In this document: positions 4,623 to 29,841 of the stretch, piece by piece
Layout of the letters: the number at the start of each line of letters is the position of its first letter
Numbering within the stretch: position 1 is the first letter of the stretch
Source: a virus
IMG/VR virus record: IMGVR_UViG_3300025652_000323
Coordinates: 1 to 30,632 of that record
Length of the DNA stretch: 30,632 nt
Direction: 5' to 3' (one strand)
Position numbers and translations under genes: made by a program
Notes under the pieces: model-generated
Database searches by the model: none
The model's input: only the letters and a program-made list of their open reading frames with translations
What the model was told of the DNA's origin: nothing

Positions 4623-5819
4623 ATGGCAACAGAAAAAGCAATAGGAGCTTGCGTTAAAATAGTAAGCGGTTTAGAACCTTCGGTATTAGCAGGAGGTATA
4701 AACATGACCGAAATAGGTCTAATTAAAGCGGCGTTAAGCCCACAAAATGCAAGAATACTAAATGCATTATATCCAGAACGTTCTAACGGAACTGTATCCC
4801 ATACAGTAGTAGGAGGTAATACCGTACCTACTGTAAAAATTGAATGGAGAAAACCAGCGGCAGACAATGAGTTGAAAACTTCTCCTTCATGTTCTGCAAC
4901 AGGTCAATTAGCTACTAAGTATGAAGATACTTATCTAATTAACAAATATCTTGAAGATGGATTCTCTATCAATGAGGCGTCTATAAATATGATATGTGAT
5001 GAATTAGACGCTATGAATGGTTCTTATGCTGCTACAAGAGGTATTAACTCTCCTGTTAGTGGAAAGTTTAAGAACACTATCAATGGCGAACTTACAGACA
5101 AGATACGTAATATCTTGGTAGGGGTGGAATCAGTAGCGGCAGATACTTTAATCGCTGGTATTGGTGTTAATAAGATTTACGGAACTGCTGACGCTCAAGA
5201 TGTGAAATTGTTTAATATGGACGATGCACAACAAGGTCCGTTAAGATTCTTTAAACAAGAATTAGTAAACCTTACACGTAAAAACAAGATGCAAGGTAGA
5301 CCGATTATCATAACAGATTCTACGGATGTATTAAATTGGTTTGAGTTGATGTGTGGTAGTGTATGTTGTTCAGATGCTGGGGTTGATTACTCAAGATTAA
5401 TTAACCAACAATATGAAGTTTACTTCTCAGATAAATTGAGCGAAGCTATTGGAGGTGATGACGAAGGCGGTAATATTATAGTATGTTATCCTGAGACTTT
5501 CGTTATGCTTGCCGTTGATAAGTGGAGAAATGTACAGTTAGCAAATGGTTCTTCAAAAATTGCTAATACTGAATTTGGTAAAATTTCAATCGTTGAGCCT
5601 TCTATGAGAATTTCAGATGCAAACTGTATTGCACAAGGAATTAACCCAAGAATGACATTTGATTTTAGAGTAAAAGAGGTTGATTGTGCTGATGATGCGT
5701 TTTTACCTTCTGTTACTTTCTTGCCTTCTTTACAGTATAATTTCGTAACTGCTCCAGCGGATGCGGATGGAACTACTGGGATATTCCACTACAAAGTAGA
5801 TAACGGAGTTACACCATAA
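4623..5819 (+). CDS. Putative major capsid protein
   Basis: 398 aa, follows the scaffold gene by 36 nt and ends just before a strong terminator. The mixed alpha/beta composition, a central GRPIIITDSTDVLNWF segment (the usual 'retrieve a reference value' strand of capsid proteins) and the late SIVEPSMRISD segment fit an HK97-fold capsid protein. Five Cys lie near LMCGSVCCSDAG and elsewhere, more than usual. With its own promoter and terminator it should be the most abundant product of the region. Confidence comes mainly from order, length and the transcription unit. Confidence 0.72.
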   Translation: MATEKAIGACVKIVSGLEPSVLAGGINMTEIGLIKAALSPQNARILNALYPERSNGTVSHTVVGGNTVPTVKIEWRKPAADNELKTSPSCSATGQLATKYEDTYLINKYLEDGFSINEASINMICDELDAMNGSYAATRGINSPVSGKFKNTINGELTDKIRNILVGVESVAADTLIAGIGVNKIYGTADAQDVKLFNMDDAQQGPLRFFKQELVNLTRKNKMQGRPIIITDSTDVLNWFELMCGSVCCSDAGVDYSRLINQQYEVYFSDKLSEAIGGDDEGGNIIVCYPETFVMLAVDKWRNVQLANGSSKIANTEFGKISIVEPSMRISDANCIAQGINPRMTFDFRVKEVDCADDAFLPSVTFLPSLQYNFVTAPADADGTTGIFHYKVDNGVTP

Positions 5820-7520: not shown

Positions 7521-7941
7521 GTATGTTTTAAGGTGGGTAGGTTTGATTATCTTAGCTGGGTTAAGTATTTACTTTGGTAGGAAATTATACTTCGCCACGT
7601 GGGATAAAATAGCGTTTAGTAATAAGGCGGTTATAATGTTACAGAAAGAATATGAAATGGTGGTAGCAGATAATACTTTTATTCAGATTGCAAACGATTC
7701 ATTGAACACACAACTAAACAACGAAAGGATATTAAATAGAGGATTGATAGAAGACTTACAAAAAACAATAGACGAATTAAACAAAAGGAAAATAACTTTA
7801 GAAAAGGATAACAAAGAATTGAATAGTACGATAGACCATTTTATTGAGGTTGCACCTTGCAAAGCCGAGGTAAGGGATGGATTTTTAAAGAAAAAGAAAT
7901 GGCAGCTAATTGACTGCGAAACAAATGAAGTAATAAAATAA
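7498..7941 (+). CDS. Rz-like i-spanin
   Basis: 147 aa. One N-terminal membrane segment (residues about 10-26) is followed by a periplasmic coiled coil (about residues 40-115, rich in Asn, Leu, Lys and Glu) and a short C-terminal domain with two Cys. This is the layout of inner-membrane spanins, which bridge to the outer membrane in the last step of lysis of Gram-negative hosts. It starts 23 nt inside the preceding ORF. No separate or embedded o-spanin lipobox was found. Confidence 0.7.
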   Translation: MIKMLLNKYVLRWVGLIILAGLSIYFGRKLYFATWDKIAFSNKAVIMLQKEYEMVVADNTFIQIANDSLNTQLNNERILNRGLIEDLQKTIDELNKRKITLEKDNKELNSTIDHFIEVAPCKAEVRDGFLKKKKWQLIDCETNEVIK

Positions 7942-27376: not shown

Positions 27377-27871
27377 ATGGCAACAATACATATAGAGCAA
27401 TACAGAGGATACGATATAATGTTTAATACTAATTCAGAAAAATTTCAATCTGATATAGACAATGGGAAAGATAAAAATAGCTTATCGTCAGCCAGAAAAG
27501 AAATAGACGATTACATGAAAAATAATCAAAATTTTAAACCAGTAAAGGTTTTTAATTCATATTCATTTGAAATAAATCAATATAATTATAAAGCAGAGGT
27601 AAAGACAATAGTTTCTTTAAGAAAAGATAATGCATTTCAATTTTCCGATAAAACACTATTATCAAATTATGATATAGAGAAATCTGGAAATTGGTTTCTG
27701 TTGGATGAAACGTATTACAAGGATATTATGCATATATTAGACAATCTACGTATTGAGAGGGATAAATTAATGAACGAAGTTAAAATTATAGAAAACAAAT
27801 CTATATCTTTTGTCGAAAAATTAAAAGGTCAATCAGTTAAAGAATTTAGAGATAAACTATTAGGACAATGA
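27377..27871 (+). CDS. Unknown 164-aa protein
   Basis: Starts MATIHIEQYRGYDIMFNTNS. The first half is beta-rich, with KIVS-like strands, and the second half is a long helix (MHILDNLRIERDKLMNEVKI) with a final SFVEKLKGQSVKEFRDKLLG. The stop overlaps the ATG of the interrupted ORF (ATGA). No family recognised. Confidence 0.65.
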   Translation: MATIHIEQYRGYDIMFNTNSEKFQSDIDNGKDKNSLSSARKEIDDYMKNNQNFKPVKVFNSYSFEINQYNYKAEVKTIVSLRKDNAFQFSDKTLLSNYDIEKSGNWFLLDETYYKDIMHILDNLRIERDKLMNEVKIIENKSISFVEKLKGQSVKEFRDKLLGQ

Positions 27872-28137
27872 CAGAAATAGAAAGATGATACCAAGAGTTT
27901 TACGACAAACTACCAGAACCACAAAGAAGCCAAGCAAAGCAAAATTTTGCACTATGTGAAGCAATAGGTCAGCCAATGCCTACGAAGCTATCAGAAGCGA
28001 TTGGGCGAGGTTTTACGGCATCAAGGACACCACAAGGCACAAGCTATTGGGGAAATATTAAAAAATATATCAGAATTAAAGAGGATAAAGAAGAAAAACT
28101 AAACAAGAAAAAACAGAACGAGAGAGTATATTTTTAA
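27868..28137 (+). pseudogene. Small protein gene with an in-frame TGA at codon 7
   Basis: ATG in an ATGA overlap, then MTEIER, TGA (27886-27888), then YQEFYDKLPEPQRSQAKQNF and 63 further codons to a TAA. The part after the stop reads as a good protein (ALCEAIGQPMPTKLSEAIGR, ending EKLNKKKQNERVYF). A TGG-to-TGA change would explain it (ERWYQEF). Other genes here use TGA as stop, so a general recoding is excluded. It may be a mutation, a base error, a restart at the ATG of MPTKLSEA, or rare read-through. Confidence 0.55.
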
Positions 28138-28152
28138 TTTTTTAGTGAAATA

Positions 28153-28185
28153 GTTTTGATAATAAAGAAAAGTTTTGTAATTTTG
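28153..28185 (+). promoter_or_regulatory. Promoter of the structured leader RNA
   Basis: TTTTG (28153-28157), a 20-nt spacer and TAATTTTG (28178-28185) fit the -33 / -7 pattern. Transcription would begin near 28190, just before the folded region. Confidence 0.6.
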
Positions 28186-28189
28186 GGTA

Positions 28190-28319
28190 AGGTTAATAGC
28201 CAAAATACACAGATTAAAAATATTTTAGACAAGTAAAAGAGGTGGTATCCTTTTACGTGTCATAGAAAGGTAACACTTTCAACACGAGCCGAGAAGATAC
28301 CACCTTCTTGGCTTTTTTT
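28190..28319 (+). ncRNA. Structured leader or small RNA with terminator
   Basis: Stem P1 GGTGGTATC / GATACCACC (28241-28249, 28296-28304) is 9 bp and perfect; inside it P2 CGTGT / ACACG (28256-28260, 28282-28286) and P3 GAAAG / CTTTC (28265-28269, 28276-28280). The 3' strand of P1 is the loop of the terminator hairpin (28288-28312), so the two folds compete. Its own promoter and terminator point to an independent RNA of about 130 nt or a transcription attenuator of the HNH gene. I could not match it to a known riboswitch. Confidence 0.55.
28288..28319 (+). terminator. Intrinsic terminator just before the HNH gene
   Basis: GCCGAGAAG (28288-28296), loop ATACCAC, CTTCTTGGC (28304-28312), then seven T (28313-28319). 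The HNH ATG is at 28324. Confidence 0.85.
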
Positions 28320-28323
28320 ATTT

Positions 28324-29007
28324 ATGAAGATAATAAAAGGAAGAGTAAAATATGAGCAAACATTTTTTAGGTTTTTAGAATATTTTGCACAAGTAAAAGC
28401 AGCTTCATTAAAAAGGCCATTAATAGCAAAAAAAGCTTTTGATAATTTATGTAATAAAGAATATTTTGAACCATATATATCAGATGGTTCATCAATGAGT
28501 AATTTGTATTCTTTTTATTCTGACTTTAAAGATAGAGGAGAATTAAAGGATTTTTTTAATCATAGAAAACTTAAATTAGATAATAAGCCACAAATAAGTT
28601 CATATAAAAAAGTTACTGGTAAAAGTTACCATAAATTTTATGAAACTAAAGAGTGGATTAGTTTATCTTCAACAGTTAAAAAGATTTATGGTAAAAAATG
28701 CATGAAATGTGGAGATAGTAAGTCTATAATGCATACAGACCATATAATACCAAGAAGCTTAGATATATCAAAAGAACTAGATATAAAAAATATGCAAGTT
28801 CTTTGTGAAAACTGCAATATAGAAAAGTCAAATTTAAATTGCAATGATTATAGAACAGAAAGAGATAAGTTAAAACTAGAAGCACATATTAATAAAAAAG
28901 TTTTTATTGAGCCAGATATAACTTTTAAATCTTGGTTAGATTTAAACAGAAAAAAAATAGGAAAGAAACAAGTTGATATATTAATCGAATTATGGGATAG
29001 AAAATGA
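28324..29007 (+). CDS. HNH endonuclease, possibly a homing enzyme
   Basis: 227 aa. The HNH block is at residues about 115-175: C126 and C129 (CMKCG), HTDHIIPRSLD with D139-H140, N156 (KNMQVLC), C161/C164 (CENCN). The N-terminal 100 residues are helical and lysine-rich, likely for DNA contacts; the C-terminal tail is helical. Only a 4-nt gap separates the start from a terminator T-run, so expression is probably regulated by read-through. The stand-alone HNH next to small genes suggests a homing nuclease, but a packaging or defence role is not excluded. Confidence 0.8.
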   Translation: MKIIKGRVKYEQTFFRFLEYFAQVKAASLKRPLIAKKAFDNLCNKEYFEPYISDGSSMSNLYSFYSDFKDRGELKDFFNHRKLKLDNKPQISSYKKVTGKSYHKFYETKEWISLSSTVKKIYGKKCMKCGDSKSIMHTDHIIPRSLDISKELDIKNMQVLCENCNIEKSNLNCNDYRTERDKLKLEAHINKKVFIEPDITFKSWLDLNRKKIGKKQVDILIELWDRK

Positions 29008-29082
29008 TTATTTTGGTTTCCTTTAAGAGAATCTTCGTTTCCAAGTGTTATTAATTAAGTAGTATTAAAGTAAATAATTAAA

Positions 29083-29841
29083 ATGTCATTTTTAGATAAA
29101 GTTGGATTAAAAAGAACTTATGATGGTAGGTCTAAACACGTACTATATAAACATTGGCGGTCAATGATGAATTTGTCTTATGGTATGGGTAGAGATATTA
29201 CAGTAGATGAAAGATGGCATAACTTCTGGAATTTTGTTAATGACTTAAAAGATATGTACGATAAAAAGTATAAATATCTATGTAGGATAGATGCTTCAAA
29301 GCCTTTTATGTTGGGTAATGTTTGGTTTACTAATTCAGGAAGAAAGGCTAACTATGGTAGAACAACGACACACAAAGTAAAGGTGGGAAATATTAAAATG
29401 ACTACTTCACAGATTAAAAGAGAGTTGGAATCAAAAGGTATTTATTTTAATCAGCAGACTCTAACTATTAAAGTAGCAAAAGGTAAAGAATTGATTGAAA
29501 AAAATAAACATCAATTATATGAATATAAAGGCAAATTATGTTCGTTAAAATCAATTTCAGAAAAAGAGAATATTATTTATCATTCTTTAAAGTATTTCGC
29601 AGCCAATAATTCAATATTAGATGCAATAAAACTTAGTAGGGAAAGTAATAAAACAAGGGTTTATAATTACGATGGGAATACATTTAATCAGACAGAATTA
29701 GCAAAATATTTACATATAAAGAATCCAGAATTAACAGTAGGTGGAATTAGAAATAGATTAAAGAAAGGGTTAAGTATAGAAGAATGCTTAAAGCCATTAA
29801 AGTCAGTTTCTTTTAAATCTAATTATCTCGATAATATATAG
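29083..29841 (+). CDS. Homing-type HNH/AP2-like protein with NUMOD-like repeats
   Basis: 252 aa. The N-terminal HVLYKHWRSMMNLSYGMGRD, ITVDERWHNFWNFVNDLKDM, then LCRIDASKPFMLGNVWFTN is the pattern of phage homing proteins ('HPLY.TW..M..RC.....GI.V...W..F..F..DM.....LDRID....Y...N.RW'). The usual catalytic His/Asn signature is weakened (CRIDASK, NVWF). The C-terminal half has two NUMOD/IENR1-like helix-turn-helix segments (LCSLKSISEKENIIYHSLKY and TFNQTELAKYLHI, then GGIRNRLKKGLSIEECLK). Probably a homing nuclease or a domesticated DNA-binding derivative. Confidence 0.68.
   Translation: MSFLDKVGLKRTYDGRSKHVLYKHWRSMMNLSYGMGRDITVDERWHNFWNFVNDLKDMYDKKYKYLCRIDASKPFMLGNVWFTNSGRKANYGRTTTHKVKVGNIKMTTSQIKRELESKGIYFNQQTLTIKVAKGKELIEKNKHQLYEYKGKLCSLKSISEKENIIYHSLKYFAANNSILDAIKLSRESNKTRVYNYDGNTFNQTELAKYLHIKNPELTVGGIRNRLKKGLSIEECLKPLKSVSFKSNYLDNI

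Follow-up and report, generated by a model that had tools for sequence, protein, structure and literature searches.

Replication of ColE1 plasmids is governed by two separate RNAs, RNA I and RNA II, which meet through fully paired 7-nt loops and control the replication primer. Two-hairpin kissing-loop riboswitches, such as guanidine-II, bring leader hairpins into contact through their loops. In pT181-type attenuators, the loop is contacted by an antisense RNA that is a molecule of its own, and an antiterminator element becomes sequestered (PMC4878617). In the immunity system of satellite phage P4, premature termination by leader RNA pairing controls phage replication genes; the processed CI RNA pairs with seqA and seqC, and the terminator loop is not described as a partner (PMC4825925).

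We analysed an IMG/VR virus record of 30,632 bases (the whole stretch, hereafter the window), whose proteins include ones of portal, replication-initiation-like and primase/helicase type. A candidate leader RNA (28233-28319, plus strand; about 87 nt if terminated, with ends deduced from a promoter box and a terminator) lies in the interval from the end of a degraded open frame, near 28137, to an HNH gene at 28324. The leader resembles pT181-type attenuators in its 5′ hairpin with a kissing loop, its intrinsic terminator, which in most relatives, though not in the window with its HNH gene, precedes a replication gene, and loop letters that would set specificity. It differs in that both partner loops reside in one leader and one of them is the terminator loop itself. 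The 7-nt fully paired loops, in which changes would define compatibility classes, recall ColE1, although here there is a single leader RNA with a terminator. Guanidine-II likewise has two leader hairpins that touch by their loops, whereas here the partner is a terminator loop, the contact spans 7 bp, covariation occurs at three to four positions and Rfam gives no match. The P4 CI system is unlike this family in both sequence and architecture. With kissing-loop RNAs in general, the leader shares two hairpins joined by a covarying loop-loop helix.

The leader is compactly organized. Hairpin 1 (28233-28256, plus strand) has arms at 28233-28239 and 28250-28256, a bulged A at 28240 and the loop strand GGTGGTATC at 28241-28249, with a 7-nt kissing core at 28242-28248. 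The intrinsic terminator (28287-28319, plus strand) has arms at 28287-28296 and 28304-28313 and a T-run of seven T (28313-28319), and its loop strand GATACCACC (28296-28304, plus strand; core 28297-28303) is complementary to 28241-28249. Between the two kissing hairpins, the minimum free energy (MFE) fold, which also yields hairpin 1, places a small variable hairpin, GAAAG-GTAACA-CTTTC (28265-28280, plus strand); L302 and L306, which are closely related to the window RNA, also have a short hairpin here, but by inspection a different one. The HNH start codon follows 4 nt past the end of the T-run. Over the 1.7 kb from 27500 to 29200, this terminator is the sole terminator-like site on either strand (0.3 expected). 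Folding energies fall 4.85 s.d. below dinucleotide shuffles for 28178-28340 and 4.90 s.d. below shuffles for 28229-28318, with 0 of 200 shuffles as good in each case.

The first-pass annotation of this DNA had described a folded leader and terminator ahead of a gene, in which a long-range helix (P1) and the terminator use the same bases, 28296-28304, with a pseudoknot as the other option. We found both P1 arms at 28241-28249 and 28296-28304, the shared bases and the leader-terminator arrangement as described, and the pseudoknot proved to be the correct option: in the MFE fold of 28178-28340, the loop of hairpin 1 holds the first 9-mer and the terminator loop the second, giving a loop-loop pair. 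Each loop strand can use its outermost bases to close its own hairpin, leaving exactly 7 nt exposed per loop, and these are perfectly complementary, so the loops could kiss with both hairpins intact.

Promoter evidence places the 5′ end at hairpin 1. The TAnnTTTG promoter previously assigned to the segment does exist as an exact consensus match (TTTG-N19-TAATTTTG, 28155-28185, plus strand; predicted start about 28190), but matches of this type in the AT-rich window occur at chance level (3 found versus 1.9 expected). The more likely promoter is the −7 box TATTTTAG (28221-28228, plus strand), 11 nt upstream of the bulged A. A TAnnTT(T/A)(G/A) box precedes hairpin 1 in 32 of 33 members, against a background of 4% per 20 nt, and its distance to the bulged A is 10-12 nt in most members and 17-18 nt in some. 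Published Bacteroidota spacing puts the G of the box at −5 (PMC6847099), which, applied to the window, would put the start at 28233, where hairpin 1 begins; the transcript thus probably starts at or just before hairpin 1. With this start, a predicted length of about 87 nt replaces the free RNA of about 130 nt proposed earlier, and an attenuator that senses translation, another of the earlier suggestions, becomes unlikely as far as a leader peptide is concerned because no ATG occurs between the probable start and the terminator. On the minus strand of the window, 28319-28828 contains no TAnnTT(T/A)G box that could drive an antisense RNA, this being the only promoter type sought. In L302 and L306, a tRNA gene lies immediately upstream of the leader instead, and the leader 5′ end there may be made by tRNA processing; the tRNA at L306 (6805-6875, minus strand) matches RF00005 at 60 bits, has a CAT anticodon by eye and was missed by ARAGORN.

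The leader with loop-loop complementarity is, judged from sequence comparison, a real RNA family. A search for homologues, a check put forward with the first-pass annotation, returned 79 loci (70 distinct RNAs) in IMG/VR that keep the paired arms and mostly precede genes other than HNH. The family was collected by pattern scans of viral contigs and by a protein-based search free of any loop sequence requirement. The initial pattern, two window arms 30-60 nt apart in viral contigs, retrieved loci where one arm belongs to a 5′ hairpin and the other to a terminator loop that a start codon follows directly, while stem sequences and downstream genes differ entirely; a relaxed pattern added loci with the compensatory changes GGTCGTATC/GATACGACC and GGTAGTATC/GATACTACC. 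To escape pattern bias, we used as query the DUF6291 protein found downstream of several leaders; of the 49 loci recovered, about half carry the RNA, with loop pairs that include GGTAGTAGC/GCTACTACC, GGTAGAATC/GATTCTACC, GGTCGAATC/GATTCGACC, GGTCGAAGC/GCTTCGACC and ACTGGAATC/GATTCCAGC. A scan with degenerate letters yielded 57 new loci, 48 of them complementary at the pattern-free positions where 1/16 is expected (P about 1e-48, if loci are independent); the remaining nine lack hairpin 1 and look like chance matches. A terminator-type stem and T-run are present in all members. Applied to 2.7 Mb, the loop descriptor found 55 consensus cores in the forward sequence versus none in the reversed sequence, and a generic descriptor for other loop codes gave no excess over reversed sequence.

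Neither the window RNA nor its relatives match Rfam 15 above the gathering threshold, and a permissive search returned chance matches only. Among sequenced phages, DNA similarity gave no match for the window and only chance, coding or no matches for seven further leaders (L175, L145, L210, L286, L276, L298 and L299); one candidate copy, H21, lay outside any such leader and was rejected as due to chance. No convincing copy turned up in sequenced phages of Riemerella, Cellulophaga and Porphyromonas that have related replication genes. In bacterial genomes, searched with the window loop code only, we counted 15 matches versus about 14 expected by our own estimate, none of which, on inspection, had hairpin 1 and a T-run.

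Covariation supports both stems and the helix between the loops. In a set of 21 distinct rows, assembled by structural element and aligned by hand, pairing holds at 93% in hairpin 1, 99.5% in the kissing helix and 96% in the terminator stem. All seven stem pairs of hairpin 1 show two-sided changes, every pair of the terminator stem covaries, and four of the nine pairs of the kissing helix have changed on both sides with no one-sided standard change. None of 500 shuffles reaches the observed covariation scores, and no slid register comes near. The 7-bp loop pairing is unbroken in 70 of 70 distinct RNAs, with the consensus GUVGWAK in hairpin 1 against its exact complement MUWCBAC in the terminator. 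These results refute an ordinary terminator with a chance repeat: repeats are plentiful in AT-rich windows, but covarying complementarity at 79 loci and the empty reversed-sequence control leave this explanation with practically no probability.

The unconstrained best fold beats the best P1-containing fold in 33 of 33 members, by 0.4-12.6 kcal/mol with any kissing bonus excluded, and we therefore favour a kissing contact over long P1. The P1 arms are paired and conserved in homologous loci, as first annotated, but mainly as a contact between the loops of two hairpins. A two-state switch, in which P1 acts as an antiterminator that a ligand or protein toggles against the terminator, would make sense of the bases that P1 and the terminator share; the best P1 fold of the window is within about 2-3 kcal/mol of the unconstrained, terminator-containing fold (2.9 in the 33-member comparison), that of L128 is only 0.4 kcal/mol worse, and a short 90-nt form does fold with P1. 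In most members, however, the P1-free fold wins by 4-12 kcal/mol, again excluding kissing; L205 keeps exactly the seven core pairs and one outer pair and has lost the other outer pair; and neither a conserved ligand-type junction nor an Rfam match was found. We regard such a switch as improbable in general, though a simple form of it could operate in single members such as L128. The terminator itself comes in two shapes: a simple hairpin with the pairing strand as its loop (the window, L012, L077, L146 and L302) and a larger form in which GAG and an additional small hairpin precede the pairing strand (L128, L145 and L175, among others).

The genes behind the leader are mostly of phage replication types (DUF6291, Lin1244_N, primase and helicase, with the primase and replicative helicase types assigned by sequence), and others are ParB-like or helicase genes; the operon starts within some to tens of nucleotides past the T-run. 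In the window, the downstream gene (28324-29007, plus strand) encodes an HNH endonuclease-like protein of 227 aa (PF01844, E = 7.5e-10; phrog_144). HNH-type genes follow the leader at only three loci, namely the window, L146 (judged by sequence) and L299 (NUMOD4). The HNH gene is thus incidental, since relatives mostly precede replication, helicase, ParB-like and other genes. Relatives of the HNH protein, followed as a route to the RNA, led to one distant locus only, at which we saw no such RNA. Three known classes were rejected for this leader: a T-box, as relatives have UAG or UCG in place of the UGG in the window loop and there is no Rfam T-box match; an HNH-associated guide RNA of the HEARO or IscB type, as the 227-aa protein has an HNH domain only and most relatives have no HNH gene; and a type III toxin-antitoxin system, as the leader has no repeats and is followed by varied genes with no ToxN match.

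Among close relatives, loop letters change in pairs. Leaders with no more than 2-7 differences outside the loops frequently carry unlike loop codes, and the letters have then changed on both sides every time (L173 versus L209, for example). In 40 close comparisons, which are mutually non-independent and in which recombination could have moved loops between phages, the 280 cells of kissing pairs contain 30 double changes and not one that is one-sided, compared with 14 double and 68 one-sided or broken changes in 840 stem cells. On a tree of the downstream gene, in which most branches are weakly supported, the loop code has changed at least 13 times, and 11 of the 12 possible letter combinations at loop positions 4, 6 and 8 occur. 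These data agree with selection that maintains perfect pairing while the code itself turns over, and because the loop letters switch on both sides while stems hardly change, they suggest selection on loop identity. We tentatively propose, though we would sooner expect it to be wrong than right, that diversifying selection acts on the loop letters as a code for recognition, by which the terminated leader of each phage would control early or replication transcription of all genomes with its code in the cell, so that codes would amount to incompatibility or superinfection classes of phages, comparable to those that loop changes create among plasmids.

Part of the loop does not vary at all. Core positions 2, 4 and 6 (U, G and A) are constant, partly owing to the search patterns but also in the protein-based set, and together with the bulged A and the closing G-C they hardly vary between members whose stems are unrelated. 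Pairing alone, as a code, does not account for this constancy, which hints at a further binding partner. The fixed core letters and the bulged A may be bound by a protein; such a phage or host protein, or one that recognizes the kissing complex, could set read-through while the loop letters drift neutrally by compensation. Under neutral drift, however, one would expect some intermediates with G-U or mismatched pairs, and stems that change at least as fast as loops; close relatives show neither, so we treat this reading as a genuine but minority possibility.

A rather unlikely alternative makes the RNA of about 87 nt the product itself, a stable small phage RNA with a hairpin at either end whose loops act in trans on the RNAs of co-infecting or resident relatives, with incompatibility-like classes and read-through secondary. 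The double changes of loop letters among near-identical leaders, the wide use of the possible codes and the position of hairpin 1 at the predicted 5′ end are all compatible with it. So is one 62-kb contig, G010 (loci L201 and L206), which carries two leader copies of different loop code, 38 kb apart at 5479-5559 and 43838-43920, but this contig may join two genomes or may come from a phage that has a pair of orthogonal copies. Early-operon start codons lie close behind the terminator in nearly all members, as expected for control in cis. Contigs carry one leader in 19 of 20 searched, and these single copies do not on their own show action in trans.

Our favoured reading, held with moderate confidence, is that these leaders form an apparently undescribed family of phage RNAs that attenuate transcription of early operons through loop-specific RNA contact, in keeping with the role as attenuator or short free RNA first suggested for the segment. 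Transcription would start on or close to the first nucleotide of hairpin 1, which would fold at once and present the covarying 7-nt loop GUVGWAK. Late in the leader, a strong intrinsic terminator would form with the complementary loop MUWCBAC, and the two loops, whose pairing the covariation shows, would form a 7-bp kissing complex of presumed geometry. From its position, the terminator is expected to cut expression of the following operon, and whatever occupies hairpin 1 or the terminator loop would set the level of read-through. The most likely controlling partner would recognize the loop sequence itself, because loop letters switch among near-identical phages and stems do not, and could be another copy of the same RNA. 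In that case, the terminated leader could serve as a count of the genomes being transcribed, much as antisense RNAs serve plasmids, and such control of early operons would be akin to that of pT181 attenuators and P4 immunity. The kissing contact may, alternatively, only stabilize the RNA.

Attenuators and kissing loops are known parts; what seems to be new is that both occur in one leader, where the terminator loop serves as the partner and the codes are interchangeable. We found the family described in none of the freely readable papers searched; the thousands of microbiome RNA candidates that still lack curation (PMC8040213) lie outside that search. So far, the family occurs in uncultured phages, most of them with Bacteroidota-type promoters, in which gene control is poorly known, and it offers a ready set of naturally diversified attenuators. 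The loop code predicts that matched RNAs cross-talk and mismatched RNAs do not; if true, phages would use plasmid-style RNA copy control.

Several further features were observed. In the window, a second HNH-endonuclease-like protein (phrog_3377) is encoded at 29083-29841, downstream of the first. The open frame at 27868-28138 has an in-frame TGA after six codons (MTEIER*YQEFYDKLPEPQ...) and could be a pseudogene, contain a recoded codon or reflect a sequencing error. Two plus-strand 9-mers, at 5123-5131 and 7659-7667, equal loop codes of relatives (GGTGGAATC and GGTGGTAGC), and one-mismatch matches to the loop number 7 in the window versus 2.1 expected, with the two arms included; these 9-mers are probably a coding coincidence. 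At L223 and L224 (1390-1520), a leader without hairpin 1 precedes a DUF6291-like gene and has a terminator-loop strand, GTGAGAGC, complementary to GCTCTCAC at its predicted 5′ end, possibly a cousin architecture.
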